Shown: piece by piece, positions 7,865 to 60,824 of the stretch
How positions within the stretch are numbered: position 1 is the first letter of the stretch
How the letters are laid out: each line of letters begins with the position of its first letter
Program-made: the position numbers and the translations under genes
Notes under the pieces: generated by a model
The model's database searches: none
Seen by the model: only the letters and a program-made list of their open reading frames with translations
What the model was told of the DNA's origin: nothing
Source: Chaetoderma sp. LZ-2023a
Taxonomy: Eukaryota > Mollusca > Caudofoveata > Chaetodermatida > Chaetodermatidae
Length of the DNA: 64,000 bases
Reading direction: 5' to 3'
Assembly: GCA_034401795.1 (NCBI GenBank)
Contig: CM067369.1
Span: forward strand, 93,747,712 to 93,811,711

Positions 7865-9297
7865 ATGTCGTCTACTCAATTCTTTATTTATTTAAGTATT
7901 GTATAAAAGCCTGGTACGCCCGCATCTGGAGTATGGAAACGTAAGGACTGGAAAGCTATGTTTCCAATGGTGCAGCATGCAACAATGTCAGCAGTACTGC
8001 AAAGCAGTGAGCCCAGGATTTTACTTTTCCTCCTTAGTTCACCGCCACTGAGTGAGTCGTCATATCGTTTAGTTTCATGCTTTGTAGATAGGTATATGTG
8101 GGTGAACTCTGTTTTGGATTCATTCATAAAGAGATTCTCAATTTTTAGTTTGCTTGCAGCTATTGGGAGAAGTTCGTCAAGGGGTTTCATTTCCTCATCT
8201 ATAAAGTCCACATTGTCAGCATATTCCATCTCTAGCGGCATGCCCAGTATTGACACTGGGGGGGGGGGGTCTTGTGGAATTTTCCCACACGGATTTCAAT
8301 GCAGCAGCCAGGTAACAGGTGAAAAGCACAGGGGATAGACCATCTCTCTGTGGGGAGCCGATTGATGTCTCAAACTCTACAGATTTCACTGACTTGACTC
8401 GTACTCTCAGCGTGGTGTCTGCAAGCAGTAGTCTCACTAGTCACAGCTCATCTTCATTGCAACTGGCCTGGCATAGTAGGGGGGGCCTACATCTAGGATC
8501 TTTGAGTGCTTAATTGTGTCAAAGGCTCGGCAATTGTCAATGCCCATTTTGTGGAAATCCCAGTGTTTTGACATGACTTCCGAAACAAGTATGCGTAAAT
8601 ATAGATTGATAAAATGCTTGAAATAGTAAAAAGCATTGACCCAGAATTGGAATACGTACGGTGGGATTGACTAATCCTGGCAGTAATCGCCCACTGCAGG
8701 TACAGAGTAAGGATGTGATCTGGTTGCTAGGTTAGAAAAAGGATTAGGTTTGGCACTTTCGACCCTCTGTCCCATTCCATAGTAGTAGTACAGGTCTCAA
8801 AATTGGGCATAAACAAACCAATAGTTCCTGTGTGATTTTGGTTGATTTACTGTAAAATTTTCAACATTGGCCCAACGTCTACATATGCTATCTGGGTTGG
8901 TTCGAGGTAGAAAGGTGTTTACATTAATCAAAGGCCCAGAACGATGCCCTGCCAATATAATCAGGTCATGTAGATCGTCATGCTACCACAACATGCGGAT
9001 GTGGAAGCAGAGACTTATCTATCGATAATTGAAATCGCTACAGAGCAAGTTATTGTTGATGCACAGCCTACTCCAAGACATGTCCACTGTATTGGAAGAA
9101 TTTCAGTATGACTTTGTGTTGGGCTGGTATACATATACCTGTTCAGTCGAATTCAAATGAGCTTTCTTTGAAGTAGATATCTATAGTTTACTTTTGAATA
9201 ATTCAAGTATTGTTGCTTCGACTATTGTAGCTGGCAGTGAATTCCACTGTGGTACCACTCTGTTAGCGAAAAGGTGCTTGCGAATGACTTTGTTGCT
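7862..9297 (-). repeat. Chimeric LINE-derived unit, copy B
   Basis: Inverted relative to copy A (1253-1950). On the plus strand, 7898-7946 encodes LYKSLVRPHLEYGNV, a CR1-group motif, joined head-to-head to a minus-strand polymerase fragment. Copy A lacks about 745 bases present here (roughly 8095-8840), apparently by one simple deletion. Confidence 0.8.
7947..8560 (-). pseudogene. LINE reverse transcriptase palm fragment
   Basis: Minus-strand motifs in order: AFDTIKHSKIL (palm motif A) near 8520, GSPQRDGLSPVLFTCYL (motif B) near 8370, YADNVDFIDE (motif C position, where YADD is expected) near 8215, then KSKILGSLLCSTADI, the conserved region after the palm of CR1-group enzymes. The frame shifts at a run of ten G near 8260 and again before 8480. 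Motif C reads ADN rather than ADD, so the enzyme would be inactive even without the shifts. Confidence 0.8.
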
Positions 9298-9513
9298 GCG
9301 CTTTATGTTAAGCTTGAACCTATGTCCTCTGGTCTGTGTAATACTGGATGGCTCGAAAAAGTAGTTCTTATCAATATTATATAGATCCCTGATGCGCTTG
9401 AATGTTTCAATTAAATCTCGGAATCGTATATATTTTAGTGACATTAGATTTAGGGCGTCAAGTCGTTCCATGTAGCTATACTCTTTGATTTGATCTTAAA
9501 GACTACTAGTCCA
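9181..9513 (-). pseudogene. LINE reverse transcriptase C-terminus fragment
   Basis: Open from about 9505: DQIKEYSYMERLDALNLMSL, then RDLIETFKRI and RGHRFKLN, then NRVVPQWNSLPATIVEAT. This is the C-terminal region of CR1/L2-type LINE polymerases after the thumb. It stops at 9181. The 6.2-kb TIR element begins at 9517, immediately upstream of this coding sequence, and may have inserted into the LINE. Confidence 0.75.
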
Positions 9514-9516
9514 GTA

Positions 9517-9640
9517 AGAAATGACAATGGACCCGGACATTTTAAGTAACAACCAGATTTTTGCCCAGAACTCTTCCATTGTATCTAAATTAAGACCACA
9601 AAAAATTCCCCATGAATCCCAATTGGGGGAAATGATTTTT
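9517..9640. repeat. Left terminal inverted repeat of the 6.2-kb element
   Basis: Matches the reverse complement of 15575-15709, with a small gap after GACA and several substitutions. The strongest blocks are the first 14 bases, the 22-base GGACATTTTAAG region, and the inner AATTCCCCAT block near 9604. Confidence 0.75.
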
Positions 9641-9646
9641 TTTTAG

Positions 9647-10010
9647 CAAAATGGCCGCCAAAATGGCTGAAAATTATACATTTCTAGATAGTTCAGTTAC
9701 TATATAAGCTAGAGTGGCGATTAAAACCTCTAAAGTTAATGTTTTGGGGTCAAGGAATTGAATTCTGATATTATTTCTACAGAATAACACATGCTAATTA
9801 TAGTAATTTATTCAAAATGGCGGAAAACGTCAAAATGGCCGCCAAAATGGCCGAAAATTATACATTTCTAGATAGTTCATTTACCATATAAGCTAGAGTG
9901 GCGATTGAAGCCTCTAAAGTTAATGTTTTGGGGTCAAGGAATTGAATTCTGATATTATTTTTACAGAATAATACATGCTTATTATGGTAATTTATTCATC
10001 ATAATTCACC
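9647..10010. repeat. Two-unit 184-bp tandem repeat
   Basis: AAAATGGCCGCCAAAATGGC occurs at 9649 and 9833, and the following ~150 bases are near-identical (TTAATGTTTTGGGGTCAAGG in both). It lies just inside the left terminal repeat, 3' of the gene, where transposons often carry subterminal binding repeats. Confidence 0.85.
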
Positions 10011-10093
10011 TGTCAGGATGGCAGATATAACTAAAATTATGCATGGTGCATAGAGTCAGCAAATTACGGCTGGCTCCACCAAGTAATATTCTG

Positions 10094-13000
10094 CTAAAGT
10101 TCAATGTGCGAATTTATACATTGCCCCTCGCATTTGCAGTGTATGCTGCATGGAATTCCTCTCTTGGCACAAGTACAAGATACACAACGCTCGCTCTTAC
10201 AGGAGCATCTGATCTCTGCCAATATATCTGCTGGTGCTGCTGCTTTATCAGTGATTACCGGCACTACGACACCACCTTCAATCTTGTATCCGAACTCTTC
10301 CTTTTGGAGAATCGTTTGAAGATGATGCCATGTGCCTACTTGGTGATGTACACGTAGCGAGTGATAGTACATAGCTCTGCTGGTAGGTGGCATTCTCTCA
10401 AAAGGTACATATTTGGATGCTACCACATTTAAATAGCGCAGTTCATCGAGTCCTTCAGCATTGGTTCCCCATATGTACAAATTCTTTGCAAAGTTTTCTC
10501 CTACCTTTAGAAGCACTTCATTAGGTGTTTCTGTGTCACCAAAGACCAGCGCATCTGCGCATAACTGCTGTGATGACTGGAGCAATTTCATGAGCTTCAG
10601 TTTCCCCACGCCATACATTCCAGATGTTGTATCACAGCCTGACATAGCATGAGCAAATGGCAAACACATATACATCTCTCTCCCTAACACCTCCTTTGCA
10701 ACTTCAATGGCAATGGTATGTTGTCTGGTCTGCATATAAACATGTTTCCCATAATTTGTGTGTTGGATCAACATTATCAGAATTTCTGTATCATCAACAA
10801 CAACAACAACAACAAGAATATTTTCATATGTTTTTGCCAATTCCATTGTCTTCTTAACTATGTAGACATCAGCAACACCCTCTTCACCAGCATGCTCTAC
10901 ATGGATGCCTGCCTTCTGAAGGTGCTGAGATAATAATTTGATCAAACCCAGCTTGTTCTTTTTGTTTCCAAGAAATGCCTTCTTGTCTCCAGGTATTGGT
11001 GTTTTCATCTCCACAACAACATCTGGGGAACATTTTCTCCTTTCGCCGTCGCTTTGTTCCTGATCTTTTGTTGTTGCCACTTCATAGCTGTCAAACTCTA
11101 CACAAAGAGGAAGACCATATGAAGAATGGGAGACAACAGAGGACACATATGCATCACAAACATCCTCCATAGTGCCAGTCTTGGCCCAAACCAGTTTGTG
11201 CAAAAGAGCACATCCATCAAGCACTTTAGCTGCTGGTCCAACTGTCTCTGATGTGATTTCTGTATCCATCTCAAGCATACATTTAGCCGGATCCGCCTTA
11301 TTTGCTTTCCTCATACTCCCGTCATCTTCGAACAGTGCAGGCGATACAGTTGCAAGTTCATGTGAAAACACACTTTTGTCAGGAGGGCAACCATTGACAT
11401 ATGACATGGACACAAATCGATGGTACAGCGCCTGTGATGACATTCGGACTTCATCACCAGATATTTTGAGGGGCTTTCGCACGGCAGCAAATGTTTTAGC
11501 TTGTTCTACCCTCTTAAACTTTACACCGCCAAATTTCTTCTCATTCAGTTTTTCTTGGATTGTGGTCCCAATTTGTAGGGCATTATCTACATTGACGCGC
11601 TCATCAGCTACTACTCCAGTTGCAATGTTCCTTAGCTCACTGTCTTGGCCAGATCTGAATGGGTTGTTCCTTAAAAGGAATTGCTTGAAGGTTTCCATGT
11701 CTTCCAAATCCTTTCTAATGTTTCCTGGATGCATCTCTTTATGTTGTTCTGACCAGGACCCAGTAAACTTACTGGCAAGGCAACGTAGAGCATCAGTGTA
11801 CATAGCAACAACATGTGCAGTGAGTAACCAAATGTTTCTTGCAGAGTCTTTGTGGGTAATATTGATGAGTCCACCTACAGTCTTCCCTGATCTCATCAGT
11901 GATTGTTCTATGGTCATATCTGACCAGGTTCCACTCCAGAATCGGGGTTTCTTCCTTCTTATCGCAAATTCTCCATTTTGTATTGGTTCTTCCAAACATT
12001 CACATAAATTCTGACAATCTTGAAGATACAACTGGCAACATTTTGCATAGTTGTTGTGACCTGCATCTGCTAGGAAAGGTAACATTCTCTCTATAGCCAA
12101 AAGATGTAACTTCCAGCAACCCGTTCTTTCAGCTCTAATGAAAAGCATTGTAATTTCAACCATGCCCATAAACATTAGCCATAGCTTTGTCGTTCAGTTG
12201 GATTCGTGAGATTCTTTTTTTCTAATCACTTCTTCATGCAGCTGAATCAGATCTTTATTTGCAGTTATTTCATCAAAGCAGATTTCACCAGCTAATACGG
12301 AGCTGTAGAATGTTTTCAAACGTGACAAAATGTTATCACTTTCCACAGGTTCCTCATTAACAGTATATTGATCTTCACAACCACTACCTGACATAGGAGT
12401 TGTTTGGAAATTGCTTTCACTATTCTGATTTCTATTTGACATATTAACCTGATGATGATCATCATCATTGTTAGTCATGCCCATACAATCTGATGCTTCA
12501 TTATCAGTGTCCATACGGCAGTCTACATCTACATTCTGAACACCACTGCTCGATTGTTCTGCTAGTTCTTCTGACAAGTCAGTGTCCACAGCATCGCTAA
12601 CTTCAGGCTCAAACAATAATAGATGAAGTGCTGCATTTGTTAAAAGGCATGCTCTTAGCGTCTTAGTATAAGATTTGCCCTCCATCATTTTAGGTAAGGA
12701 GTTTTTGGCATACACTGTACCCCACTACTCTTCAATACCACTGTCCTCCATTAGTTTACACCCTGCACCAACGAAAGACATAAGTAAATGGAATCCTCCC
12801 AGCCACAAGAACATGTTCTTAAATTCATTCTGATTGTCTTGCTTGATTTTGCAAGCACTCATATACAATGGTTGGTCAAAGATAAGTGTTACACAGCACA
12901 TTCTGACTTTCATAGCATGCTGTTTCACATATACCATAGTACTATAAACAGCTTCATCTGTTAAAGGGTTCAAAGGTACCATAGTGTTGAACACCACATT

Positions 13001-14737
13001 TGTGCAGCAGTACTCTCCTTTGCTTATGTCGGACATGAACCCCTGCCAGGTTGGTGGACTCAGTGAAAGCCTACTCGATAACAGCCACAGGGTATCCATT
13101 ATTTTGACATTTACGTGTGGAAATGTCTGTAGTGCTAAGAGTTCCTATCTTAACATCAGACATGCATGATTTCAAAGGACGCTTGTGGCATTTGATGATT
13201 GAACTGAAGTTCCCATCTTGCATTATATCTGCTGAAGAAGGATTCTGTCTAACAACTGGTTCCAGTGTACGCTCACATGAAGTCTCAGTTTGACATGCAA
13301 TTATACCCATTACATGTGTGGTATCATGCCCTGATTTGGTATCTTCATTATAGTCAAAGTTGTCAGCTACCCACTGACAGAAACCGCCCCTTTGCTGACT
13401 TCAACTAAACCGGATATTAATGAATCCAGTCGCTTTCCAACAGCTGCACTCTTTTCAAACTGCAGAATCTGAGTATATGATATACATAGACCTAAGGATG
13501 ACAGAACATCAATGAGCACCCTTGATCGTGTTGTCTGCTTGATAAAGAGGCCAACTGATAACATAAGAGGTGATATGTATGATTGTTGGCCTGTTGCCTG
13601 CATGAGGATGTGGCACAATGAAGTTATCAGAAGTTGCTTCTTCATGTTGGCTGATTCACTTCTTGATTCTGAGAAAAGGTTAGCAACAAGGGTGTGGAGT
13701 GAGTCTGGAATGGACTTTTCTAATTCTCTCAATTCAAATTCTGATGGACTTGGATAAGTGTCATTATCAGGTTCTATATTCAAGATATCTTCTCTAATTT
13801 TTGCACCTATCAGTTTTGTCTGTTTTAGGGTTTCTTCACTGTCTCCTAGGTTGTCTGCATCAATATATGACTGATGTAAAATGTTATCTGCAGCAGCTCT
13901 GAATGTAAGTATGTTAATTTTCCCTTCATTTTGCGCAACGCATACACATTCACCAAACTGCTTCACAAGGCGACGTTTCAGATGCTTCTCTGTGTATGGC
14001 GGAACACCTTCTGGCAAGTATGTTGCGAGCTGATCTCTCAGATCCTGAAGGGAGAATTGACCCTGCATTTGCTCTGTTTGTTGTAACCAGTAACACAACT
14101 TGTTGAAAGCACAATCATTAATTGTGTCAAGGTTTCTAGAATTGCCACATGTTATGTCAACACAATTTTTGCACCCTGGAACACCTTTTCCTAGCAAAAA
14201 TAAGGTCATACAAGTTCGGTGATAATGAGCCTCTACTGCACGGAGATCTCCCGAAAAATGTATTCGTGCTTTTACATTTACTGCTAGATTGTCGTGGCTA
14301 TTGTCACATTTTTTCATTAGTGACTCTTGGATGAGACTTCTTTTTTCTTTGCTTGATACAATCTCCACACTAGACATCTGAGATGCTCGGTCTGGATGGC
14401 GCTTGACATCATCAAAGTCAAGTTCCTTTGTACATATCAAGCAATGTGTTGGATAATCAAAAGGTTTGCTTTTCGTTTTCAAGCGTGGTGTAACACCAGA
14501 ACAATCTGGATCACTGGAAGTTCTATTTGGTTGTTTTCCTTTTGAATAATTTTTATAGCAATTTTCATGAACATATCTCTTCTCAGTGGAAGATGTTTTC
14601 AAATGTATGTCATCACCTCGTTTCAATGAAACTTCATTTAGGGTTTGTGTCCCTTTAGCACCAAGTTCTCCTCCATTGACATGTATCTGTACATCTACAT
14701 CGCAAATGATACAGGGCGTGTTCAGCCCGGCCATCAC
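10094..14737 (-). pseudogene. Broken ~1,550-codon gene: zinc modules, FEN1/PIN-like nuclease, CXC domain
   Basis: Read from 14737 downwards. Residues 1-200 hold two Cys/His modules (CIICDVD...VHENCYKNY; CLICTKEL...AHYHRTCM). The middle (DQPLYMSACKI, LGGFHLLMSFVG) is not assignable. The last ~690 codons show VLDGCALLHK, VEFDSYE...TTKD...RRK, HAGEEGVADVYIV, DDTEILIMLI and GCDTTSGMYGVGK. Their order and spacing recall the acidic motifs of the PIN/FEN1 fold (DG, FDG, GEAD, DTD, GCD with helix-two-turn-helix). The end, CSCKSERCVSC...CSIHCKCEGQC, resembles a CXC domain. It is broken by frameshifts near 13383 and 13100 and by in-frame stops TAG at 12725-12727 and TGA at 12194-12196. The same architecture recurs, as I recall, among uncharacterised invertebrate proteins. 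The nuclease reading is inference. Confidence 0.75.
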
Positions 14738-14739
14738 TG

Positions 14740-15574
14740 TTTAGCCCGCACAAGCTTCACATTCAAATTAGCAAGCCAAAGCGGGTGAATAGAAAATAAC
14801 ACACAGGCTATAAGATCAACAATGCGAGAATGAAAAGAAATCAAAGGTCATACAGTGTAAATCGTGAAATTGGAGAAAGTATGAGCATGAAAAAAGAACA
14901 AGTGCAATCTGTGCTTGATCCGAGCAAAATCCGAGTTTAACTTCGTCTCGCAACTAGACAGCACGGACAATAATACCGAAATATATCAAACATGCAATAT
15001 AAACATGAGGGAAAGGAAAGGGATATTAAATCAGGCGCAACCTGGGGTTCATATGGCATATATTCAACTTTTACTATGTCTAACAAGCAGACGACAAACA
15101 AATTCAACCGTATAAAATATGTGGTTTATATAATTTACTTAAATTGCCGATTTCTAAAATTACCCCGGAACCTATATTTCTCAAACGATATGTATTTAAC
15201 AATATGCTAGAAAAGGGTGCAGAAAGTTATCCACTATGACCGTGGCATTTGACCGTTTGACTCCAAATTTTGGAGACATGAATATGACTATGTGGACAAC
15301 AATCAAGCAATGATTCATCGAGGTATTCCCAGTGAGACGTGAGTAAGCAAATTTTGAAAAATGCTGCCAAAAATGCTTCAAAAAGAGATTTTAGGTCGCT
15401 GTGACCTTGACCTTTGGCCTTTTCACGAAAAATGTGGCACATATGTTCGGAACATAACTGCTAACCTCCCACCAAATTTGGTTAAGATACTAGCAGTAGA
15501 ACCAGAGTTATTAAAAGAATAGCTTATGCACCAACAAAAATCTAGAGGTCACCTCTCTGACCTTGAAATAACCT
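14740..15574. other. 5' region of the 6.2-kb element
   Basis: About 830 bases between the gene start and the right terminal repeat, without a credible open frame. It should contain the promoter. An in-frame TAA lies just upstream of the ATG at 14737, supporting that start. Confidence 0.5.
15402..15419 (-). promoter_or_regulatory. Nuclear-receptor-type sites (TCAAGGTCA)
   Basis: The minus strand reads GGCCAAAGGTCAAGGTCA: two AGGTCA half-sites abutting, containing TCAAGGTCA, the monomer site of ERR/FTZ-F1-type receptors. A further TCAAGGTCAG lies at 15558-15567. They sit in the presumed 5' region of the element's gene. Function is not shown. Confidence 0.35.
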
Positions 15575-15709
15575 ACTTTCCCCATGTGGGAATCGTGGGG
15601 AATTTTTCTGCAGGCACTATGGTATATATAGGCAACTTTGAAACATAAATTTGCTTGTTACTTAAAATGTCCGGGTTCGACCAAAATCATGTCAATTCTT
15701 ACTGGACTA
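15575..15709. repeat. Right terminal inverted repeat of the 6.2-kb element
   Basis: The reverse complement starts TAGTCCAGTAAGAATTGACA and continues through ACCCGGACATTTTAAGTAAC to an AAAATTCCCCACGA block, paralleling the left end at 9517-9640. Confidence 0.75.
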
Positions 15710-16308
15710 TACTGATCCGATTGGCCTAAAATACCAACACAAGAGGTTCTTGCGGTTTAGTTCAAGTTCAGGTTCAAGATTATTTATTGGCGGTGGACCC
15801 CTACATATAACATATAACAACAATATAGGACATGAGAATACTGAATAGATAAGGTTAACATGTTATAGTCCTATATATACATATAGTTAACTGTCTCGCT
15901 GCCAAGCTTCTGCAGTCTACATTTTCCATGGAGCCTAACTCAGGGTATGCTGAGTACCTCTAAAAAAATTAATTTGACCGAACGTTGTCGGTGGCTAAGC
16001 CACAACCAACTTTCAGTCAAATTTTTCTAAAATACTCAGCCAATCCAGAGTCATTGCCAATTGGAATTATTGTCCGTTTCCAGCAGTCCAACAGTTAATA
16101 GACGTATGACAATTTACATTTTTACAGGGAAAGACATGATAGAGGGATGTGTGCTTATCTTGCTTAAGTTAATAATTCTATATTACATATTCTTATTATC
16201 AATGACAAAGTATTAATTTATTTTTTATTTTTTTAGGCTGTGATGGTAGAGGTAGTTGTTTGGTAGTTACCATTATGACAGATATTCTTATTCTTAATAT
16301 TACTATTA

Positions 16309-16439: not shown

Positions 16440-19400
16440 CTAGTAGGTTTCTATAATCTTCTTTTTGATATTCTGCTTAAAGTACTGTAGCTTTATGATG
16501 TCTGTGCGTGTGCTTGTGTCTGTATTATTCCATAACTGAATTGCTTTGTATGAGGGGTTTTGTTGTGCTGCTTTTGTTTGGTGGTGTGTTGAATGGAGGT
16601 TATTTCTTGTTCTTGTGTTGTGAGAATGCAATTGTGTATTGAGCATAAAAATGTTAGATAAGGATGAGGGTAAGTTGCCATTGTGGAAGTCCCTTAAGAT
16701 TGTGCATAGTTGGAGCCCTCCTATGTCCTCAAGTGTTAAGACCTTTTCTGATTTAAAGATATCCTGGCCACCTGCTGTTTGTGAAAATAGTTTAATAGAT
16801 TGCTTTTGCAGAGATTTTAGTTTTTTTAGTCTAGCTTGAGATGTATTAGTCCAGATAGCATTGCAGTAGGTGATGTGAGGAAGTATCATTGTGCAGTACA
16901 GGTTTTTTTTAATAATATTAGGTGTTAGATAGGGTTTTAGTCTGCGAATGATGCCAATGCTTTTTGCTACCCTGGTAGTAATAATTTCAATATGCTTCTC
17001 CCATGTTAAATTTTTCTCCAGATATACTCCTAAAAACTTAGCATATGGTGCTTCTTGAATTATCTGGTTGTCGATATAGAGGTTTGGGAGAGCTATTTCT
17101 TTTAGTTTCTTAGATTTTGTGAATAGTATATAATTAGTTTTTGATACATTTAAGGACAATTTGTTTACTTTAAACCAGTCTATTAATTTCGCCATTTCAT
17201 TATTAACATTTTTGTATAGAATTTCTATATCCTTATGGCTGCAGAAAGCATTTGTGTCATCTGCAAAAAGTATTAGTGAGAGATGTTTGCAGACTTTGGG
17301 TATGTCATTCATATATAGGAGAAACAGCAGGGGCCCAAGAACTGAACCTTGGGGAACACCACAAACTATATTTTTGTATTCAGAGATAGCCCCATTCAAT
17401 TGTACACACTGTTCCCTATTTGACAGGTAACTCTGTATCCAGTTCAATGCAGTACCTCTTATTCCATAGTATGCAAGCTTTTGCAGTAGAGTTGTATGGT
17501 CAATTGTATCGAAGGCTTTGGAAAGATCCAAGAATACACCTAGCGTACGTTCATTATTCTCAAGGGAGGTTGATAATTTGTCTATCATATCTACAATGGC
17601 AAGCATAGTAGAGTGTTTTTCTCTGAAACCATATTGAGAAGGACATATGATTGAGTTTTTGTTTAGATATTTAGTAATTCTACTAAAATACAGCTTTTCT
17701 AAGAGTTTTGAGAAAAGTGGAAGTACCGAGACTGGCCGATAATTAGTAAAGTCAGATACATCTTTAGCTTTGTATATGGGTGTCACACGTGCAACCTTTA
17801 ATCTTGATGGAAATACTCCCTGTGTAAGTGAGAGATTACAGATATGGTCCAACGGTGTTAGTATTTCTGTTACACAGTGTTTAAAAAATGTCCATTTGAA
17901 ATTATCGATTCCAGCACTTTTAGCTGTGTTAATTTGCATTAGTATTTTGTAGATTTCGTGAGTATCTGTTGGATTTAGGAAAATAGAGTGTTGATAACTA
18001 CCTGTTAGAAAGTCCTTTATATGTATGTTCGAGCTGGGTTGAATTTTTTGTGATAAATTAGGACCAATGTTAGTAAAATACTCATTAAATTTGTCTGCTA
18101 TTTCTTTTTTGTCGTTAATGACTCTATTATTATAAATAAACCGTGATGCTTCAGTATTGTTTTTTTCCTTATTTAGTAATGATTTAATCAGTTTCCATGT
18201 TTCCTTTATATTATCTTTTTGTTCATCAAATTTATTATGAAAATAATTTATTTTTGCTGTCCTAATTATCTGATTTAGCCTGTTTCTATATTTCCTGAAC
18301 TGTGAGTCATTATACTTTGTCGGATATTTAATAAAATTCAGATATAACTTGTTTTTCTTGTGACAGGCAGCTATCACTCCTCTTGTAATCCAGGGTTTAG
18401 TAGGATTTTGTTTAAATTTCTTAATATTTTTAAGTGGAAAGGCGGATTCATAGATGTTAGAGCATATAGTGTGGAAGGTGTCGTAGGCATCTTCACATGA
18501 CTGTGATTCAATTACCTGGTTCCAGTTTATGTTAGCCATATTGTTTTTGAACATTTCTATATTTTCCTTTTTGAAGTCTCTACAAGTTACTGCTTCTTTT
18601 ACAAATGATTTTCCTTTTTTGTTTTCTTTTTCTATATAGAAAATAGGTAAATGGCCTGAAATATCTACAACAAAGATACCTGTTTGATTCTTGGCACTTA
18701 CAGCATTATTCGAGATGATGTTGTCAATAACAGTAGCCGAGAATTCTGTAATTCTTGTTGGTTTCGTTATAAATGGATAAAAGCCAGATACTTTTAATAA
18801 ATTTAATAGGTCTTGAGTGTAGAAGCTATGTTGTTTTAACAAATCAATATTAAAGTCACCTAATATATAAGCAGATTTCTTTTCATTTTGTATGGTATTT
18901 AGAATTTTTTCGAATGATTTCATAAATTTGTCGTTGTCACTTCCAGGAGGTCTGTATGTGACACCGACAAGTTTATTTTTAGTTTTTTCATTGGGAATTT
19001 CAATAAAAATAGTTTCAATAAATTCTTCATTCATTGACAGGTCATCTCTCAAATTATACTGTAAACTGTCCTTTATGTAGATGCCTACACCACCACCTTT
19101 TTTAGTTGGCCTGTGTTTTTCAATGAATTTGTAATTTTGAATATTAATTAAGTCCAGTGGTGAGTCAGGTTTCAACCATGTCTCGGTAATTCCTATGACG
19201 CTAAATGCATGTGAGCTGGAATCCATAAAGTTATTAAATTTATCAAATTTTTTTAGCGGCGATCTAATGTTAATATGAATCATTGAAAAGGTGATAACAT
19301 CAGTACTCTTGATAATATTATCATTAAATTCTTTCTGAAGTATATAGTCACAGAGTGGAAAATTCATACCTTCATTATCAATATCTGTTTCAGAGAAATT

Positions 19401-19730
19401 TGTGTATTCATTGCCCTGGTTAGAAGTATTTAGCTTGAATGGGTTTACAAGTATGTTTGCATTTATATATGTACTGTAGTCATATTTGGCACCTAGGATA
19501 TTAAGCAGAAATTCGGTATCGTTTTCATAGTGATTAAAAGGAATATTAGTTTGGTTACATTGAAAACATCACCATGGCTCATCAGAACTCTGGAGTTCTT
19601 CATAATCTGTGATAGTTAGCCCGTGGGAGCATCTTAAATGCACCCAATCACCACAACAGTCACATAGAATTGCATGCTGATTAGATTTGACAGGTTTGTT
19701 GCAGGATAAGCACGGGAACCGGACATGCAT
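16440..19730 (-). pseudogene. LINE polyprotein: PHD finger, AP endonuclease, reverse transcriptase (one stop)
   Basis: From ATG at 19730 the frame runs through a PHD-type finger (CLSC...CDCC...HLRC...CFQC), interrupted by a single TGA at 19571-19569 after 'DEPW'. It is then open for 975 codons from ATG 19367. The endonuclease shows IHINIRSP, ITETWL, YRPPGSDN and LGDFNIDL. The polymerase shows YRPVSVLP, FLDLSKAFDTIDH (motif A), GVPQGSVLGPLLFLLY (motif B) and LILFADDTNAF (catalytic ADD). About 1,096 codons in all. Apart from the TGA all catalytic motifs are present, so this copy is young. If translation starts at 19367, only the PHD finger is lost. Confidence 0.9.
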
Positions 19731-26796: not shown

Positions 26797-29110
26797 ATGG
26801 ATGCGCCCTTAGCCAAGATGGCGGCGCCCATGTATTATGTCGTTCTTGGATTGGTGTGTCTATGCACTCTGTTTATCGCCGATATTAGCTTTCGCTTCAT
26901 TGTCAAAGGTGTTTGTAGCGATTGGCGATGTAGCCTTGGTTATTTAACGTTAGTTAAAGGCTGAGTTGTGTGTTTTAAAAATTTTTCACTAAAAAAAGTT
27001 TCAAATATCTCCTGCCTAAGAATTTGATAATCATTAATTTAAGAGAAAGTTAATGTGTTTAAGAAATCTTAACTATCAAGTCGATTGTGCGTATTGCTCG
27101 TCATCATTTGTCATGTGCAGCGTTTTAATTTTTCTCTGTGTTCGCAGAAACCTAAGAATCCGGATACGTTGTGCCAAAAGTGCAACCGATTCATGAAACG
27201 GAAGTATTTGGGACATCACTGCGTGGCGTGCGCCCAGTGTAAGGTCGGGAGCCCTTGTGATGTGTGTGTGAAGTGGTCGTCGGCAATGGTGGCAGAGTTC
27301 GACAGGGATCGGCGTGCGAGACTGGAGAGGATCGCGAAGGATAAGGCAGCGAAGTAGCAGCAGGCGTCGTTGATGGGACTGGAAGGTCGGCTGAATGACA
27401 GGATGGATTCAACCCTGGGCGTATGGGCAGCCCAGTTCAAGGCAATGTTTGAATCATTGCAGTCCACAGTCCCGGTGACGCAAGCTGGTGCAGGACAACC
27501 ATTAGGTGGTCCGGCTAGTTCTGCTGAGGGTCATGCACCTGCCCCTTCTCTGTCCTTGGCTCAAGAGCCGACGATAGAGGAGGAAGATTTGTTGCTGATG
27601 GAAGATTCCGGCATGCCAGATATTTCTAAGACGGCAATGCCCGGTACGTCCCAGGGGTCGCTCTCGGGATTAGTACGGGTTTGCCAAGCGGACGGTGATG
27701 TCGACGTTCCGTCGGGCATTTTCCATCCGCTATTTGTGCAACCGGAGGGGTCGGCAGAGCCGTGTTTTGCGGTTCCTGCTGGTATTCCGGCGGCGTTAGG
27801 TGCGGCTCCTATCGGAATGCCGTCACCTGCCATAAGCAAAGCGGTCGTGGTCCCGACTCCCGTGCTGGAGCCGATGGACTGCAGAGAATCCGGGTCTGGC
27901 GATTCGTTAGACACCGGTGCCGCTGGTAGTCGCGCTATGGATGCGCTCTGTCTTGGCAGAGAGGTGTCCCATAGCGCTCAGCATGGATCGTCGGTGGCCC
28001 TCTCATCTAAGGGAGAGAGGGAGGATGAAAACGGCAGTTCGTTGATGGACGAGTCCGTTTTCTGCACCGAAGCTGAGTGGGTGCAGGTCCTCGGATGGAT
28101 GACCAATCGTCTCGGGTTGGCATCTGATCTGGGATCTCAGCGCGATCCGGCGATGGAGCGGATGTCAGAGCGAGCGGCTAGCGCTCTGTCAAGTGGCTCT
28201 TCTGTCATGCCAGCACTCCCGTTGGACACGCAGACTTCCGACATGCTGGAAGTTGCGGCATACCGTCTGGTTCAGCCAGACTATGCATTGCCAAAGGCCC
28301 CGAGGGGGATAAGGAGTAGGGTCCGTTTTCCGGAGCTGACCTACCATCAGTACGCCCGTGTTCCACGGCTTTCCGTTGCGGAACGAGAGGCTCTGAATAG
28401 GCCGTTGGCTGGGAAGGCTAAGGGGCGGTCGCATCCCTTGGTTTCCCAGACCAACAAAGACCCGTTCAATGAGCTCATGCTCATTGGGGATGCGGCGAGG
28501 GCAGCCATGGCTGCGCTGTCGCACGGGTGTACCGTCTTGCAGGGTATGCTGGACTGCACGGCGGATGGTGAACAGGTGCCAGAGGCTGCTCCCGGCGTTG
28601 TTCGGGACACCATGCGCCAGTCTCAGGATTGCCTGGCCAGGGTGATCACTAGGACATTGGCAGAGCCAGGATTGTGTAGAACCAGGACCAGAGATGAGGG
28701 CTGCATTATCTTCTGCACCTTTCATAGGTCCAGGCTTGTTCGGCGGCTCGGCACGACAAGCACTCTCCAAGGTCGCGTCAATGGTTGCAGAGCAGGAGGT
28801 AGTCGGCAAGTCGTGGAAGTCGACTAAGAGGACACAGCCGCAGCAGTCCTACAGGCAACATCGCCAGGAGCAGCAGCGACAGCGTCCTAGATTGCCCTTC
28901 CGTCCTTCTGGCCGTGATGCCCATAGGCCATCCGGATCACAAGGACCTGGCCGTTCATCCTCATACAAGTCCTCTAATAAGAGGCCGTATGAGGAAGACA
29001 GGAAGGGTGGCGGTTCGGGCCGTGGCGGCTACCGTAAGGATGGCCGTGGCGGCGGTTCCGGACCGTCGTACTACAAGAAGCCGAGGGGCAGCCGTGGGGC
29101 TCGTTCCTGA
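26797..29110 (+). pseudogene. DIRS copy 1 gag-like gene with 5' intron (broken)
   Basis: Proposed exon 1 is 26797-26838 (MDAPLAK...) and exon 2 starts at 27148 after a pyrimidine-rich TTCGCAG acceptor. The intron (26839-27147, 309 nt) is inferred from copy 2, where the donor is clearer. Exon 2 opens with a Cys/His cluster (CQKCNRF...HHCVACAQCKVGSPCDVC). An in-frame TAG occurs at 27355-27357, then the frame is open from 27358 to 28827. A shift near 28700 leads to the C-terminal part 'FIGPGLFGG' and an Arg/Gly/Ser-rich basic tail ending at 29110. The protein presumably packages element RNA; two lesions make it non-functional as read. Confidence 0.7.
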
Positions 29111-31256
29111 CGGGTTTCCGGCGGACCCAGTACTGGTGGCTTTGGAGGCGAATGGAGTCGAGAATCTTCACCCAAGCGATTTAGCGTCTTATCGGCCAAT
29201 CTTGATTCCTTCCGTCGGAGGCAGACTTCAGTTGTTCCTAAGCCAATGGGAACAGGTCGTGCGCGACTGTTTAGTTTGTCAGTGGATAAGAAACGGCTAC
29301 AATCCGGACTGGCTCATCCATCAATCGTTAGTTCCGTTAACTTCGACTCCAATATGGACTCCTGTTCCAAGGGAATCAGATCGTCTAGACGCCATTCGGT
29401 CAGAAATAGAGTCTCTTCATCAGAAGAAGGCGATTCATCTAGTCAAAGATCAGTCTTCACTGGGCTTCTATTCGATCATGTTCCTCGTTCCGAAGCGTAC
29501 TGGAGGATGGAGACCAATTCTCAATCTCAAACCGTTGAACAAATTTATTCTTTCTCCCAAATTTCAGATGGAGACGGTGGCAGCGGTAATGACAGGGCTG
29601 AGGAAAGGCATGTGGGGAGTGTCGATAGATCTGAAGGATGCATATTTTCATATTCCAATGTCAATTCCTTTTCAGAAGTACCTTCGTTTTGCATTCCAAG
29701 ACAATGTTTGGGAATTCAATGCTCTCCCGTTCGGCCTGACGACAGCTCCGAGGGTCTTCACCAAGGTGGTTCTCGCCATGACTTCTTTACTTCGCAGGAG
29801 AAACATAGCTGTTCACACGTACATAGACGACTGGCTGCTAAAGGCGGGGAATCCAGTCACTCTGCGCAGCAATCTGCAGGTAGTCCTAGCCTTATTAAAG
29901 GATCTAGGGTGGATTGTGAATCTAGAGAAATCAGAACTGACTCCATCCCAGGAGTTTGTTTATCTGGGAATCTTTTTCAATCTCAGGGACGGCGTAGCTT
30001 TTCCGGCGGAGAGCAGAGTCAAAAGCCTGATTGCAGTTTTGGAGTCGGTTTCTCTAGGAGCCTATCTGACGGCGCGCCAGTTTCTCAGGATACTGGGGTT
30101 ACTAGTATCGTTAGAGAAGGTGGTTCCATATGCGGCACTCAGGCGCAGGCCAATTCAGATGTATCTAATGTCATTCTGGTCTCAGAAAACGGATCCGTTA
30201 TCTCTGAGGATACCAGTCAAAGAACCATTGATATTCCACCTTCAGTGGTGGTTATCCGAACAGAATCTCCTGCGAGGTGTTCCTCTACAACCTCCTCAAC
30301 CTCAGATGTCCATCTTCATGGATGCATCGTTGACGGGTTGGGGAGCGGTATTGGACAATCAGTCAGGGGAATGGGATCGGACCAATGCGCAGAAACATAT
30401 CAATGTGCTCGAACTATTAGCAGTGGTATTTGCACTTCGAAAGTTCGAGAGTCTAATTCAAGACAAAGTTGTCCTAATAAGGACAGACAACTCAACAGTG
30501 GTGTCTTATTTGAACCGCCAGGGCGGGACGAGATCACCAGAGTTGTGTATGATGGTTTGGAACCTTCTGCTGTGGTGCCAAGAGAGGAATATTATTCTTC
30601 GGGCAGCACACATTCCAGGAAGATTGAACATCCTAGCGGATGCTCTCAGTCGAAGGACGGTTTGTCGTCCGACGGAATGGCAGCTCAACCAATCGGTAGC
30701 GGAGGTTCTATTCAAATAATGGGGCAAGCCAAATGTCGACCTGTTTGCAATGAATCAAAACGCAAAGATGGTCACTTACGTGTCACCGATCCCGGACCCA
30801 CTAGCCTTAGCAGTAGACGCACTGGCGATAAGTTGGGAGGGAATGTACGCGTATGCGTACCCTCCAACAATTCTCATCCCGAAAGTTCTGGCAAAGATAA
30901 GAGAGGGGATGTGCCAAGTACTACTGATCGCCCTGTATTGGCCAGGCCGATCATGGTTTACGGATCTGCTGGACCTTCTGGTCTGCAATCCAATCTCTCT
31001 GCCAGACGCAAGAGATCTAATCTCTCAGAACAAGGGTCTGTACCTTCACGACAGACCAGAAATGTTCAGATTGACTGCATGGATGTTATCAAGCAGCGTG
31101 CAATTGAGGGTGGCTTTTCTGAGCAAGCAGCGAAGTTTGTTGCTTCAGCCAGAAGAGTTTCAACCACAAAGACATATAATTATAGAATCAACAAATTTGC
31201 ACAGTGGTGTGAGAGAGGAGATATTGATCCCTTTTCTGCATCTGTTCAACACGTAG
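28914..31256 (+). pseudogene. DIRS copy 1 reverse transcriptase-RNase H-methyltransferase-like gene (one stop)
   Basis: Overlaps the gag tail in another frame. The polymerase has WRPILNLKPLNKFI, SIDLKDAYFHIP (motif A Asp), ALPFGLTTAPRVFTK (motif B) and HTYIDDWLLKA (catalytic IDD). RNase H follows: IFMDASLTGWGA, LELLAVVFAL, IRTDNSTVVSYL, HIPGRLNILADALSR. A TAA at 30717-30719 then interrupts the frame, which continues in register through a domain with NVDLFAMN and YAYPPTILIPKV to 31256. I place that last domain as the Dam-like region DIRS elements carry. Copy 2 reads through at the equivalent stop position. The polymerase and RNase H motifs are intact. Confidence 0.9.
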
Positions 31257-32104
31257 CAGATTTTATCTGTCATTTATACGAAGTTGACAAACTTGTACCT
31301 TCTACCCTAGCAGCATATAAGTCTGCATTAGCTTCAGTCATTCCCAGTCTCACGATTGGAGGAGTGGAGAATGACACCTTGAATGAAGTTATCAAAGGAA
31401 TGAGCAATCTGCGACCTAGACAGCCAATTCCTATTCCATCTTGGAATCTATATCTTGTTCTACAGGTTTTAGGACAGGCTCCTTTTGAACCGATTCGATC
31501 TATTGATATTAAACTGTTAACTATTAAATCAGTTTTCTTGGTTGCAGCAGCGTCGGCGAGAAGGAGAAGCGAAATACATGCGCTTTCTGCCGAACAAGAC
31601 CGTTTTGTCGTCACGGGTGAAGGTTTAATACTACTTCCACGTCTTTGTTTCCTGGCAAAGAATCAGTCACTTAAATATCCAGGACAGCCGATCAATTTGC
31701 CAAGTTTAACTAGACATGACCCAAACTCTTCTGTTTGGTGTCCTGTCAGATGTCTTAAAATGTATAAGAAACGTACTAATGAGTGGAGAGACGACCCGAA
31801 ATCTCTGTGGTTATGTCTCAAAGCTCCCCATTTACGTGCCTCGAAAGATACTATTTCTCGTTGGATAGTTGACGCTATTAAGATGTCGCACAAAATCGCT
31901 ACAGGAAAGCAGATTGATCGTGCGAATGCCCATGAGGTCCGAGCACTAGCAGCATCATCGGCCCTTTATACGGGTGTCTCATTAGAGGAGGTGATGTCTG
32001 TAGCACAATGGCATGCCGAGTCGTCATTCACTGATTTCTACCTTCGCGACATCTCCAGCGCACTTAATCCGGTAGCCGTCGCCAATCTGTCGAATCTAAA
32101 CTAA
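31079..32104 (+). CDS. DIRS copy 1 tyrosine recombinase
   Basis: About 341 residues from ATG 31079, overlapping the end of the polymerase frame by ~180 nt in another frame. The N-terminal part has the SAM-like DNA-binding region (YNYRINKFAQWC, LAAYKSALASVIP). The catalytic domain shows ASARRRSEIHAL (first Arg), HEVRALA (His-x-x-Arg), AQWHAESSFTDFYLRD (Trp/His and the nucleophile Tyr). It would integrate circular DNA at short homologous sites. The frame also stays open far upstream, but that part is only the shadow of the polymerase gene. No stop or shift is seen. Confidence 0.92.
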   Translation: MDVIKQRAIEGGFSEQAAKFVASARRVSTTKTYNYRINKFAQWCERGDIDPFSASVQHVADFICHLYEVDKLVPSTLAAYKSALASVIPSLTIGGVENDTLNEVIKGMSNLRPRQPIPIPSWNLYLVLQVLGQAPFEPIRSIDIKLLTIKSVFLVAAASARRRSEIHALSAEQDRFVVTGEGLILLPRLCFLAKNQSLKYPGQPINLPSLTRHDPNSSVWCPVRCLKMYKKRTNEWRDDPKSLWLCLKAPHLRASKDTISRWIVDAIKMSHKIATGKQIDRANAHEVRALAASSALYTGVSLEEVMSVAQWHAESSFTDFYLRDISSALNPVAVANLSNLN

Positions 32105-45052: not shown

Positions 45053-47910
45053 ATGGCAGGAAGGAATTCTTCGCCAGTGGAGGGCCCAGGACCTATATAT
45101 CAGGTGACTTCTAGTAAAATTAGCGAGTTTTTTCCCGGTGTAATGTGTTTCCGGGACTCGCATTTACCGTGATAAGCGCCGTGTTTAGTTGGTTTATTTC
45201 AACTAGGTGCTATATAATACTAATCTCTCTTTGTGTTTATGTCCATAGGTCTATGTGAGGATATGTAATGGACATCACAGCATCAGAGAGTTTGTTTTTC
45301 TCCACCTTGGTTCCATTTCCTACTAATACTGTTAGGTTATCTAACCAAAAAGTCTATGTCCAGTGAGTCGGAGGCCTAGTATAAAGGTCTTCTCACTATG
45401 CCCTCTTGATCCAACTCCTTCCCCTAAGGTGGAGAGTGTTAGGAGGCGTAGTCTTGGTGGAGTGCTCCAGGTCATCTCGTTGAATGGTTTGTCTATACAA
45501 GGTGTCAGGTATCTAATTATTGATATGAGGTGATGTTAATTATTTTAGAGAAAATTAACTGTATTTACCATTGTTATCAGTATTTATCTGATGGGTGTGT
45601 AGTCGGAATGTCCATTCTGTACATGTTCTGGTTATGGATACAATTCGTCCTTGCACTTGGATGTTTGTTATGGATCGATTTTTTCCTGTCATAGGATTAA
45701 TGACGTCATAATCAGCCTTGCTCTTTATTAACAATTAAAGTTTTGTCCAACGCTGGTTTCAGATGATTATTGATCTTTATGATCATTTTCCCTCTCTTTG
45801 AGTTGGTTTAAGTTTCTAAGCTTAACTAAGTTGCTCATTGCCCTCGTCCTTTTCCCTGTTTCAGAGACCTGGTTGCTCGTCCTGTGGACGTTTCTTGGAG
45901 GAGAGGTTTCTTCCTCATCTCTGCTATCAGTGTAGCCCCTGTGGTCCCTTGATTAATTGCGAGATATGTAAGCACTGGGGGGGCGAACTAATGTCCGAAT
46001 TCTTGTGCTTACAGGCGACGGACAAGGTGGTGGAGGAGGAGAAGAAGAAGCAGAAAAGAGAGGGTGTGAGTAAGAAGGGTAAGAGGAAGGCCTCGTCCGC
46101 GGTGGATATGGAGGCCTTCCGGACCGAGATGTTGGGAGAGATGAAGAGGACAATAAAGGATTTGGTTCCAGAGTTGCTTCGTGGCATGCTTCCTGGACCA
46201 AATCCTTTGTTGGCCTCATCATCTGCTTCGGAGCAGGTAATCCCCACCTCTGAATCACCTGTCCGTAGGCCGTTTCTGTTGTTCGTAGACTCAGAGGTGG
46301 CCCCATTAGAGGGGGCGTTCCACGACCCTGGCAGCAGGCTTGGTGCCGCGCCGAGGGGTCGTGGACGGCTGACGCTGGAACCCGCGGGCTGCTTATCAGT
46401 CCAGGGGTATCCGCACGCCGCGGGTGCCAGTACCTCCTATGGCACCTTTCCTGGCCAGTCCGGGTTAGCTCTCTTTGCTGACCCGGAGTCTAATCTTTCT
46501 GGCCAGGAGGAAGAAGATTACCTGTTAGGGTCGCCGTCTGAGGACGTGACCATGGATTATGACGTCTGTGCACCCCTCGCGGGGAATACAGGCGACATAG
46601 TCCATGGCTCTACTCACGCAGGAGTAGAGTTCACGGTTCAGAAGGTGGGACTGGGCGCTGCTGATGGCCAGCGTTACCGCATACCTCGGCTTGCCGAGAG
46701 TGTCGCTGGTGCTGGCCAGGGCCGTGGTGGGGCGGTATCTGCCCCGCGCTCTACCATGGCGCCTGCTCCTGGTCAGGCCAGTGAGATTAGCATGCCTGTT
46801 CTTTCGGGCCCGCATGCTTTCCCTGGCTGGCCAGGGGTATCAGCAGATCCGCCGTCAAGCTCTTGCTTGCGCTCAGGAGGAAGACGAAGGCCCCCGTCTT
46901 GTAGAGCGCTCGCAGCTAGCCACGGAAGAGGATTGGTCTGACGCTTGCCAGTGGCTGGTAAGTGTTAGGCCAGGTCTGCCCGTGGAGCAGTCGGCTAGCC
47001 AGCGTGACCACAGGCCGTGATTAGCTGGTAAGGCTACTGCTAACGCGATGCCATCTCTGCCGCTGGCAGAGCATGTCGTTGACATGTTCGAGGCGGCGGA
47101 GACGTCCATTAAGGCGAATGGGCGTCTCGCGAAGGCCCCTCGCGAGCTGGCCCGGCGTTGCCGCATCGTGCCCCTGGATTACCAGAGGTACGGTGTGGTA
47201 CCCAAGCCGAGCATGGATGACCGCACGGCTTTGGGTGAGGATGCGCGGCCAGGCTCCCGTTCTGACACGGGAGTCTTGTGTTCGAACGCGTTGTGTTCGA
47301 ACGCGTTGTGTTCGAACGCGTTGCGTTCGGCAAATGCCGCGTTGCGTGATGCGGAGGAGAGTGGGAGAGCTTCGATTGCCGCTCTGTCCCACGTCTCCCA
47401 GCTGTTACAGGGGGTAGTAACGGCATCCGCATCGCGCCAGCCGAGCCCGGTCACAGTCCAGAGAGCCATCCAGGATGGTATCAACCTGGCTCTGGACTGC
47501 ATGACTCGGGCGGTGACTAGGAGTGTCCGGGCAAGGCGCTTTACAATAGGCTACTGCGTACGCCTATGACAGGTCCTGGTCTCTTTGGAGGTGAGGGATG
47601 TAGACACCTCCAGGAGACGGTTACTCTGGTCAATAACCAGAGGGCGCTGCGCGAGCAGTTTGAAGTGCTCCGTCGGGAGCGCGTTCGCGCCGCACCCCCT
47701 GCGTATCGTCCCCTGCAGGCTCGAGGTGGAGGTGGCCAGGTCAGAGGCCAACCACCATCGCAGCGTCGGCCTCGGCCGCGTGCGATTCGGCCTGCAGTGA
47801 GGGGGGCGCAGGCTCCTCAGGCACAGTCAGCCAGGCAGCCACCCGCGCACCGAGGTGCGCGCGGTGCTGGGCGTGGCGTGCAAGGATCTGGTCATGGTAA
47901 TCGTGCCTGA
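45053..47910 (+). pseudogene. DIRS copy 2 gag-like gene with 5' intron (broken)
   Basis: Exon 1 is 45053-45103 (MAGRNSSPVEGPGPIYQ) with donor CAG|GTGACT. The intron 45104-45864 (761 nt) ends in a polypyrimidine tract and TTTCAG; exon 2 continues in phase 0 with a Cys/His cluster (CSSCGRF...LCYQCSPC...CEICKHW) matching copy 1. The frame holds to 46941, then shifts; a middle part 47048-47569 and a basic C-terminal part with 'TGPGLFGG' to 47910 lie in other frames. The middle part contains an in-frame 15-bp tandem repeat giving LCSNA units (about 47274-47321). Confidence 0.75.
47274..47321. repeat. In-frame 15-bp tandem repeat in gag
   Basis: Three copies of TTGTGTTCGAACGCG-type units plus a partial one, encoding LCSNA repeats. 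They are absent from the copy 1 protein. The unit contains the palindrome TTCGAA. Confidence 0.9.
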
Positions 47911-50030
47911 TGGGCCGGTTACCGCGGTGAGAACCACTCCGGTGTTTCTGGCAAAGGAGACAGTGCCACTCTTGCACTACTTATGTCCACCTCTCTCCCT
48001 AGGTGGACAGGTGGGAGGCCGGCTAGCCGACCACAAGCAAGAGTGGGAACGGTTGACTCGTTTAGTCTTGCGATGGCTTTCAGTCGGGTATCATCCCGAT
48101 TGGATGACAGGCCCGCCATCGCGAGTGTCTCTAGTGCCAATCTGGACTCCGAATCCGAGAGATCCAGAGCAAAGGTTGTGTATCGAGGAGGAGATAAATT
48201 CCCTCATACTAAAAGGAGCTATTCAGCCGGCACAAAAGTGTCCGGGCTTCTATTCAACCGTGTTCTTGGTAACAAAAAACACCGGAGGTTGGAGACCAAT
48301 TCTCAACCTCAAGCCGTTGAACAAGTTCATAGAGACGCCCAGTTTCAAGATGGAGACTGTGCGCTCGGTGTTGGCGTGGTTAGAGAGGGGAATGTGGACA
48401 GCTTCAATAGATTTGAAGCATGCTTATTTCCACATTCCCATAGCGAGGAGTTTCCGTCGCTTCCTGAGATTTGCATTCCAGGGCAGACAGTGGGAATTCA
48501 GGGTGTTACCCTTCGGAATTTCCACCGCTCCTCGGGTTTTCACCCGTGTGGTTCTTGCGATCACAGCATACCTCCGCAGGAGAAGCATAGCAGTCCACAC
48601 GTACTGGCTGTTAAAAGCACGCACCCAGGAAAGTTTATCGACCAATCTGGAGATTGTTTTGAAAACGCTCACGGATTTAGGCTGGATGAAAAATTTTCTA
48701 AAATCAGAGCTGACTCCATCCCAGAAGTTTGTTTACCTGGGGATGTTCTTCGATCTAGAGACAGGATATGTTTATCCTACTCAGGAGAGAGTTCAGAAAC
48801 TCATCTCAGTAGTTCAGTCAGTGTGCAACAGTCGTCATGTCCTGGCACAGGTTTACTTGAGAATGCTGGGGTTGATGGTTTCGTTGGAACCAGTCATTCC
48901 TCAGGCCGCCTTACGCAGGCGGCCGATCCAGTTTTTTTCTCATGACACAATGGACCCAGAGTACAGGTTCACTGGACCCGAATGTGTCAGTGTTGGTGCC
49001 TCTAATTCACCACCTGCAATGGTGGTTGAAGACAGAGAATCTCCTGTTGGGGGTTTTGCTAACCCCTCCCCACCCTCAGGTGACTGTGTATACAGATGCA
49101 TCGATGGATGGTTGGGGAGCTTGCCTGGAAGAGTCCACAATATCAGGGCTGTGGGATCTGGATCAGTCAAAGGAACATATCAATCTACTGGAACTAAGAG
49201 CAGTAGTCCTGGGCCTGGAACATTTCTTATGGAAAGTTCAGGGCAAGATTGTTCTTATTCGTTCAGACAACTCAACTGTAGTGACTTACATAAACCGCCA
49301 GGGCGGAACGAAGTCGCCCAGTCTCTGTATGATGACATGGAGACTGCTTTGTTGGTGCCTGGATCACAGGATTACCTTGAAAGCAGTTCATATTCCGGGA
49401 AGGTTAAATCTGCTAGCAGACTCATTGAGCCGAAGGATGGGTGTTTTACCCACGGAATGGCAACTAAATCAATGTGTGGCGGATCGTCTGTTCGACCATT
49501 GTGGGAAGCCCAACATCGATTTGTTCGCAACGAAGAGGAATGCAAAGATGACGACGTACGTCTCTCCGATTCCAGATCCAAGCGCTTTCGCAACAGATGC
49601 GTTAGCTATCAGCTGGGCGGGAATGTATGCATACGCATTCCCTCCAGCAATCCTGATTCCAAAAGTTCTTCAGAAAATCCGGCAGGAGGAGTGCCAAGTG
49701 CTCCTGATCGCCCCGGATTGGCCAAGCCGATCGTGGTATACGGATCTGCTGGACCTTCTGGTCTGCACTCCGGTTCCTCTGCCTCTGATGGACGACATTA
49801 TCTTCCAGGGCAAGGCCCTTCACAACAATCCGTCAATGTTCCGATTGACTGCGTGGATGTTGTCAAGGAATCTAGAATTAAGGAGGGCTTTTCTGAGCAA
49901 GCAGCCATGTTTATGGCCAAAGCCAGGAGGGGGTCAACCTCCAGAGCATATAATTATAAAATCAACAGATTTGCAGAGTGGTGCTCAAAAAGATGTATTG
50001 ATCCAATGGATTCATCTATTCAGGAAGTAG
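47855..50030 (+). pseudogene. DIRS copy 2 reverse transcriptase-RNase H gene lacking the catalytic IDD
   Basis: 47855-48930 encodes the polymerase: WRPILNLKPLNKFI, SIDLKHAYFHIP, VLPFGISTAPRVFTR. At motif C the sequence reads HTY|WLLKA, with the three codons I-D-D deleted exactly (between 48604 and 48605). A run of seven T at 48932-48938 gives a +1 shift. RNase H (VYTDASMDGWGA, LELRAVVLGL, IRSDNSTVVTYI, HIPGRLNLLADSLSR) and the Dam-like domain (NIDLFATK, YAFPPAILIPKV) follow in the new frame to 50030, with no stop where copy 1 has TAA. It is enzymatically dead as a polymerase. Confidence 0.9.
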
Positions 50031-50866
50031 CTGATTTCCTCTGTCACCTGTATGATGCCTATAGCCTCAAGCCTAACTCTATTGCTGGTTATAAGTCAGC
50101 TTTAATGTCTGTTATTCCTTGCTTGGCTAAGAGGGGAAGTGATGAAGTAAGTACATTAAATGTATTAATTAAAGGCATGGGCAATCTAAGACCAAGGAAT
50201 CCCCCGGTGATTCCGTCTTGGAGTTTATCGCTTGTGCTTCAAGTACTAGGTGATAAGCCTTTTGAACCACTTAGTTCCATTTCTATGAAACTATTAACTC
50301 TTAAAACTGTATTTTTAATTGCTGCGGCCTCGGCTAGGCGTAGGAGTGAAATTCATGCCTTATCAGCCGAGGATGACCGTTTTGTGGTTACAGGGGAAGG
50401 CCTTAAGCTGCTACCTAGGATTAATTTCTTGGCTAAGAATCAGTCTTTGAAATATCCAGGTCAACCTATTGTTTTGCCAGCTTTAACTAGATATGATCCT
50501 AATTCTAAAGCATGGTGTCCCGTCCGGGCGCTGCTCCGGTACAAACAACGTACATCGGAGTGGCGCACCGACCAGTCAGCGTTATGGTTGTCATATATTG
50601 AACCCCATGGCAGGGCGTCGAAGGACACCATTTCCAGGTGGATTGTAGAATGTATTCAGTTTTGTCATAAATCCGCCACCGGGAAGCAGGTTGACGTGGC
50701 CAAGGCTCACAGTGTCCGCGGCGTAGTGACATCCACTGCCCTATTTAATGGGGTCCCTGTGGATGACATTATGTCGGTTGCTCAGTGGCACTGTGAGTCA
50801 AGTTTTACAGACCATTATCTCCGTGACACCTCTAATCCTCTCGCCTTGTCGATTTTGAAAAAATAA
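49853..50866 (+). CDS. DIRS copy 2 tyrosine recombinase
   Basis: About 337 residues; the position homologous to the copy 1 ATG is GTG (49853), so the start is uncertain. It has the same core as copy 1: YNYKINRFAEWC, ASARRRSEIHAL, then HSVRGVV (His-x-x-Arg) and AQWHCESSFTDHYLRD with the nucleophile Tyr. The frame is undamaged and overlaps the polymerase frame by ~180 nt. Its upstream continuation in the same frame is a by-product of the polymerase frameshift. Confidence 0.9.
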   Translation: MDVVKESRIKEGFSEQAAMFMAKARRGSTSRAYNYKINRFAEWCSKRCIDPMDSSIQEVADFLCHLYDAYSLKPNSIAGYKSALMSVIPCLAKRGSDEVSTLNVLIKGMGNLRPRNPPVIPSWSLSLVLQVLGDKPFEPLSSISMKLLTLKTVFLIAAASARRRSEIHALSAEDDRFVVTGEGLKLLPRINFLAKNQSLKYPGQPIVLPALTRYDPNSKAWCPVRALLRYKQRTSEWRTDQSALWLSYIEPHGRASKDTISRWIVECIQFCHKSATGKQVDVAKAHSVRGVVTSTALFNGVPVDDIMSVAQWHCESSFTDHYLRDTSNPLALSILKK

Positions 50867-60456: not shown

Positions 60457-60824
60457 GGAGCGTTCCAGTTTATCCATCCAACATATGATGTCATAATCAA
60501 CTAAGTGACGTGTAGGATTAATATGGTATGAATGACTTGATTTAGTCTGTCTTTAACGCTTAATAGTCTGACACGTTGTACGAATTGTCGGTCTTTACTA
60601 TTTAATAAACATTCTGTTGAATATTTAGAAACTAATTTTACGAGGCACTGTTGCTGCCATAACAGCGCAGTCAAATTAGTTTGAAAATATTCAATAGCTT
60701 ACCTGTATAGTTTTCTGGAAATTGATAGTCAGGGAGTTCAGGGATCAATCGATCCCAACACGAGTGAGGTATGGGTGGAGCTTATCTAGAGATGGGCGTG
60801 GCTTAGCTAAAACTGGAAAGGTCC
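60457..60824 (+). mobile_element. Family-1 hairpin element, complete copy
   Basis: The left end GGAGCGTTCCAGTTTATCC and the right end complement GGACCTTTCCAGTTTTAGC are inverted. The hairpin core is 60618-60693. Flanks carry 'gatgtcataatca' on the left and 'gatcaatcgatcccaa' on the right, as in the copy at 37862. Confidence 0.75.

Follow-up and report, generated by a model that had tools for sequence, protein, structure and literature searches.

A degenerate transposon of probable AcademX type in Chaetoderma carries a FEN1-like nuclease behind a predicted DDE transposase

In the 64,000-nucleotide stretch of the Chaetoderma sp. LZ-2023a genome analysed here (contig CM067369.1; hereafter the window), two terminal inverted repeats (TIRs) enclose a single long gene with a nuclease region of the FEN1 type. 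The locus raises the question whether such a nuclease can itself move a transposon, since a previous interpretation made from the letters alone (the sequence-only reading) had proposed a transposon class driven by, or carrying, a FEN1-like nuclease. Our analysis suggests a different answer: the element is very probably an inactive cut-and-paste DNA transposon of the AcademX type, as judged by published feature descriptions, and the N-terminal half of its gene is predicted to encode a DDE transposase.

Under strict scoring, the left TIR extends from 9507 to 9632 (plus strand) and the right TIR, the reverse complement of the left arm, from 15577 to 15709 (minus strand). Both are imperfect, about 130 bp long and open with TAGTCCAGTAAGAA, and the same left terminus is found in other genomic copies. 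Using a looser scoring, which extends the TIRs to 9641 and 15566, the two arms aligned with a score of 57.5 compared to a maximum of 21.5 when the left arm was mononucleotide-shuffled 300 times, so that the two enclosing repeats seen in the sequence-only reading are well supported. Its right end at 15709 was correct, but the true left end, at 9507, lies 10 bp outside the assumed 9517; the TAC target duplication that it had regarded as possible is present on both sides (9504-9506 and 15710-15712). A subterminal tandem repeat with a 184-bp unit (9647-9998, plus strand, 1.9 copies) follows the left TIR; it is part of the element, and the unit was matched one to three times per copy in 21 copies.

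The window element is a mobile TIR element. A search of the 2.44-Gb genome of the animal with a 21-mer from the inner TIR, allowing two or fewer mismatches, yielded 330 matches (163 forward and 167 reverse), compared to three (two forward and one reverse) for the reversed pattern as control. Copies were picked from the first 100 matches listed, all of them exact, and among the matches listed at least 23 convergent pairs lie less than 10 kb apart, the window pair included; the 22 other pairs were all retrieved (20 and then two more). The 3-bp flanks are identical in 20 of these 23 copies (19/21 plus 1/2), a fraction that is not representative of all copies because they were selected for exact TIR words at both ends. 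The mismatches concern L011, in which one end is truncated, L024 (CGT versus TGT) and L044. In the controls, flanks were equal in 13 of 420 cross-pairings between copies and, at offsets of 3, 6 and 9 bp, in 0, 0 and 1 of 21 cases, respectively; 4-bp flanks were shared in none of 21 copies. Over the best-aligned pieces, the identity between the window copy and the 20 copies retrieved first ranges from 94.6 to 96.6%, and the transposase and nuclease halves are present, whole or partial, in every copy examined. One long gene with decayed frames, as in the window copy, could also be expected of a domesticated host gene or of a gene caught in a chance inverted repeat, but this explanation is refuted by the hundreds of TIR matches, the matching duplications and the related empty sites described below, which leave it next to no probability.

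The same genome harbours a second, more uniform family of this transposon type, whose termini, TAGTMCAGTAGAAAT, are related to those of the first. Eight copies were retrieved, namely L029 and L030 and, from another search, L036-L041, which have the same termini as the former two. In the best-aligned pieces, L036 shares 97-98% identity with L037-L041; L029 and L030 have lost part of the N-terminal half of the gene, and their C-terminal half is 57% identical to that of the window copy at the protein level. Matching 3-bp flanks were found in six of the eight copies, which are all six that have both ends (TGA in L029, AAT in L036, TGT in L037, TTA in L038, TAA in L040 and ATT in L041), one end being unrecognisable in L030 and L039. 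Thus, both the further copies with the same TIRs and the 3-bp duplications across copies, by which the sequence-only reading had suggested to check mobility, were found.

Empty sites, the third check suggested there, were found in related form. The joined flanks of 20 copies were searched against the window's own 64 kb, and four copies (L024, L026, L009 and L022) gave matches spanning the join at E 1e-20 or better, gapless at the join for the first three and with a 3-base gap there for L022. As an example, the match for L024 and L026 at window positions 60549-60825 contains one TGT, at 60704-60706. With identities of 72 to 83%, these matches represent related repeats lacking the element rather than the identical site. 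Since the elements of L024 and L026 are 95% but their flanks 77% identical, the comparison suggests that they inserted independently into different copies of one repeat. An exact empty site of the window insertion was not found, as the 38 other scored matches to its joined flanks span the left part only. This left part (9406-9492) belongs to a dispersed repeat: of the 40 matches scored, 38 lie in other places, and the similarity ends about 15 bp short of the element. An open reading frame (ORF) at 9181-9495 resembles the 3'-terminal part of a non-LTR retrotransposon ORF.

Between the TIRs lies, as the sequence-only reading had stated, one long gene (14734-10094, minus strand, 4,641 bp), though two in-frame stops and two frameshifts, derived from ORF and alignment coordinates, split it into several ORFs; its alignments span 1484 of the 1505 residues of the homologue P0027. 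The C-terminal half matches the FEN1/EXO1/XPG (Rad2) nucleases by sequence profile, by the order of its acidic motifs and by a predicted PIN/FEN fold, with a nuclease domain at approximately 10259-11299 (minus strand), and differs from them in that this putative nuclease is fused behind a transposase domain in a mobile element. An alignment profile was needed for this identification because a phmmer search of the PDB with the C-terminal ORF of the window alone found nothing; the Pfam family XPG_N was matched in 1 of 40 relatives. The acidic positions of the nuclease are retained in most copies, and two conserved ones are altered in the window copy. Conserved cysteine columns define a further motif at the C-terminus (10102-10198, minus strand), which we take to be CXC-like and for which there was no Pfam match. 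Profile and predicted structure, the latter compared with FEN1/XPG as had been suggested, thus support the FEN1-like domain of the sequence-only reading, and its series of DG, FDG, GEAD, DDT and GCD motifs does fit such a fold, but in the C-terminal half only and not as a stand-in for a transposase.

With regard to the transposase, the sequence-only reading had seen no fit of the motifs to DDE enzymes and no recognisable transposase. This was not supported: the N-terminal half is predicted to be a DDE transposase with a P-element/hAT-like shape. Its conserved alignment columns contain near-invariant D, D and E residues in RNase H order, a helical insertion precedes the last acidic residue of the predicted domain, and the best-aligned solved structures are the DDE transposases of P element and Hermes. 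The predicted RNase H-like domain with its insertion covers approximately 11870-13420 (minus strand); the candidate catalytic residues, counted by hand, are D at 13362-13364 (or 13353-13355), D at 12875-12877 and E at 11906-11908, and the window copy retains D459, D462, D621 and E897. The glutamate of an SGLEE stretch, an initial candidate for the third catalytic residue, was rejected because it is not conserved. Conserved Cys/His pairs mark an N-terminal zinc-ligand region (approximately 14186-14734, minus strand, hand-counted). Foldseek on its own gave no significant match by which the DDE half could be recognised; no transposase family of Pfam or NCBIfam was matched by the window ORFs or the relatives, and no transposase was among the sequence-level profile matches to solved structures. 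Pfam DUF6589 weakly matches 13 of the 40 relatives (best E 2.2e-6), the literature search found no paper on it, and viral contigs scanned with P0005 gave no match.

If the N-terminal half served for DNA binding only, the FEN1-like nuclease would itself be the transposase, as in the class proposed by the sequence-only reading. The nuclease is indeed the clearest recognisable enzyme of the element, and most copies keep its acidic positions, but the near-invariant D, D and E in RNase H order and the best-aligned structures speak against this possibility. In addition, TIRs together with a target duplication of fixed length are what DDE strand transfer normally produces, and strand joining is not a known property of FEN1-family enzymes. 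We therefore regard a nuclease acting as transposase as highly improbable; with a predicted DDE transposase in the N-terminal half, a nuclease-driven class is unnecessary, and of the proposed class only the carrying of a FEN1-like nuclease stands, a property already described for AcademX.

The DDE half, with its helical insertion, is predicted to resemble P element and Hermes (hAT) in shape. The element might instead belong outside Academ, as a nuclease-fused DDE transposon of a distinct, unnamed superfamily closer to P or hAT. The best fold matches, the missing Pfam transposase family and the DUF6589 matches could be taken in its favour. However, P and hAT elements have 8-bp target duplications, whereas the window family has 3-bp duplications, a fused nuclease and no transposase in its sequence-profile matches. 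We consider a separate superfamily unlikely, also because a nuclease together with a 3-4 bp duplication is what PMC10045372 gives for AcademX.

In combination, the DDE transposase, the nuclease and the 3-bp duplications point to AcademX, in which X stands for XPG. This lineage of the Academ superfamily was reportedly described by Kojima in 2020, as cited in PMC10045372. According to PMC10045372, duplications in the Academ superfamily measure 9-10 bp in AcademH and 3-4 bp in AcademX, a difference that seems tied to the encoded helicase or nuclease, and PMC9587614 places Academ among the superfamilies with a DDD/E transposase. Measured against these descriptions, the window element shares with AcademX the TIRs, the many copies, the DDD/E transposase (predicted here), the nuclease and the short duplications (here 3 bp). 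AcademH, by hypothesis of the same superfamily, likewise has a large DDE transposase and an accessory enzyme, but this enzyme is a helicase and the duplications are 9-10 bp, as opposed to the nuclease and 3 bp of the window family; no helicase family was among the Pfam matches of the 40 relatives (E 0.01). KolobokE, KolobokD and KolobokP are also DDE transposons with accessory nucleases, but these are, according to PMC9587614, lambda-exonuclease-like, DEDDh or His-Me finger nucleases and not FEN1-like. No description of an AcademX protein was found in the titles and abstract openings of the literature searched. As every feature compared fits AcademX, we are confident that the element is of this known kind and does not represent a new nuclease-driven class. 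The proposed class is thereby replaced by a better-resolved view of a known, little-studied group, with a predicted P/hAT-like DDE domain and a FEN1/EXO1-like nuclease in one protein and a genome offering hundreds of ends for study.

Within families, pooled codon ratios (dN/dS) were 0.72 to 0.99, which indicates mostly neutral decay after insertion and is alone no proof of selection. Between the families, pS was 0.77-0.80 and pN 0.32-0.38, with similar values across the zinc, DDE and nuclease parts, so that all three were conserved in the active lineages. Full-length relatives encode a single protein, some 1,500 residues long, with zinc modules, DDE domain, nuclease and cysteine-rich C-terminus. 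The N-terminal zinc modules probably bind the TIRs, and we infer that strand transfer is carried out by the RNase H-like DDE domain with its long helical insertion, which would cut and join the 3' ends with a 3-bp stagger; insertion leaves a 3-bp target duplication. From the conservation of the nuclease domain and the usual substrates of FEN1-family enzymes, we infer that the nuclease most likely acts on 5' strands, cutting or trimming either the non-transferred strand or 5' flaps after strand transfer. More doubtful is that this step is obligatory, with the DDE domain confined to cutting and joining 3' ends and the nuclease helping to set the 3-bp duplication. If true, a single eukaryotic protein would parallel the two-nuclease scheme of Tn7 (TnsA and TnsB). 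Which strand is cut by the fused nuclease has thus become a testable question.

Other mobile elements are found in the window as well. An apparently unbroken non-LTR retrotransposon ORF at 16440-19568 (minus strand, 1,042 aa) encodes endonuclease and reverse transcriptase, and an unbroken ORF of 343 aa at 57086-58117 (plus strand) encodes a Tc1/mariner-type transposase (HTH_Tnp_Tc3_2, DDE_3). Two reverse-transcriptase retroelements on the plus strand (28803-32104, with RNase H, and 47801-50866) are each followed by a weak match of the phage-integrase type; they resemble DIRS-type elements with a tyrosine recombinase. Elsewhere in the assembly, the sole two COX1-family matches found, with long unbroken frames of 690 and 708 aa, are located at 3.29 and 4.65 Mb of contig C18 (L042 and L043), a contig that resembles bacterial sequence, from a symbiont or contaminant, more than a mitochondrion.
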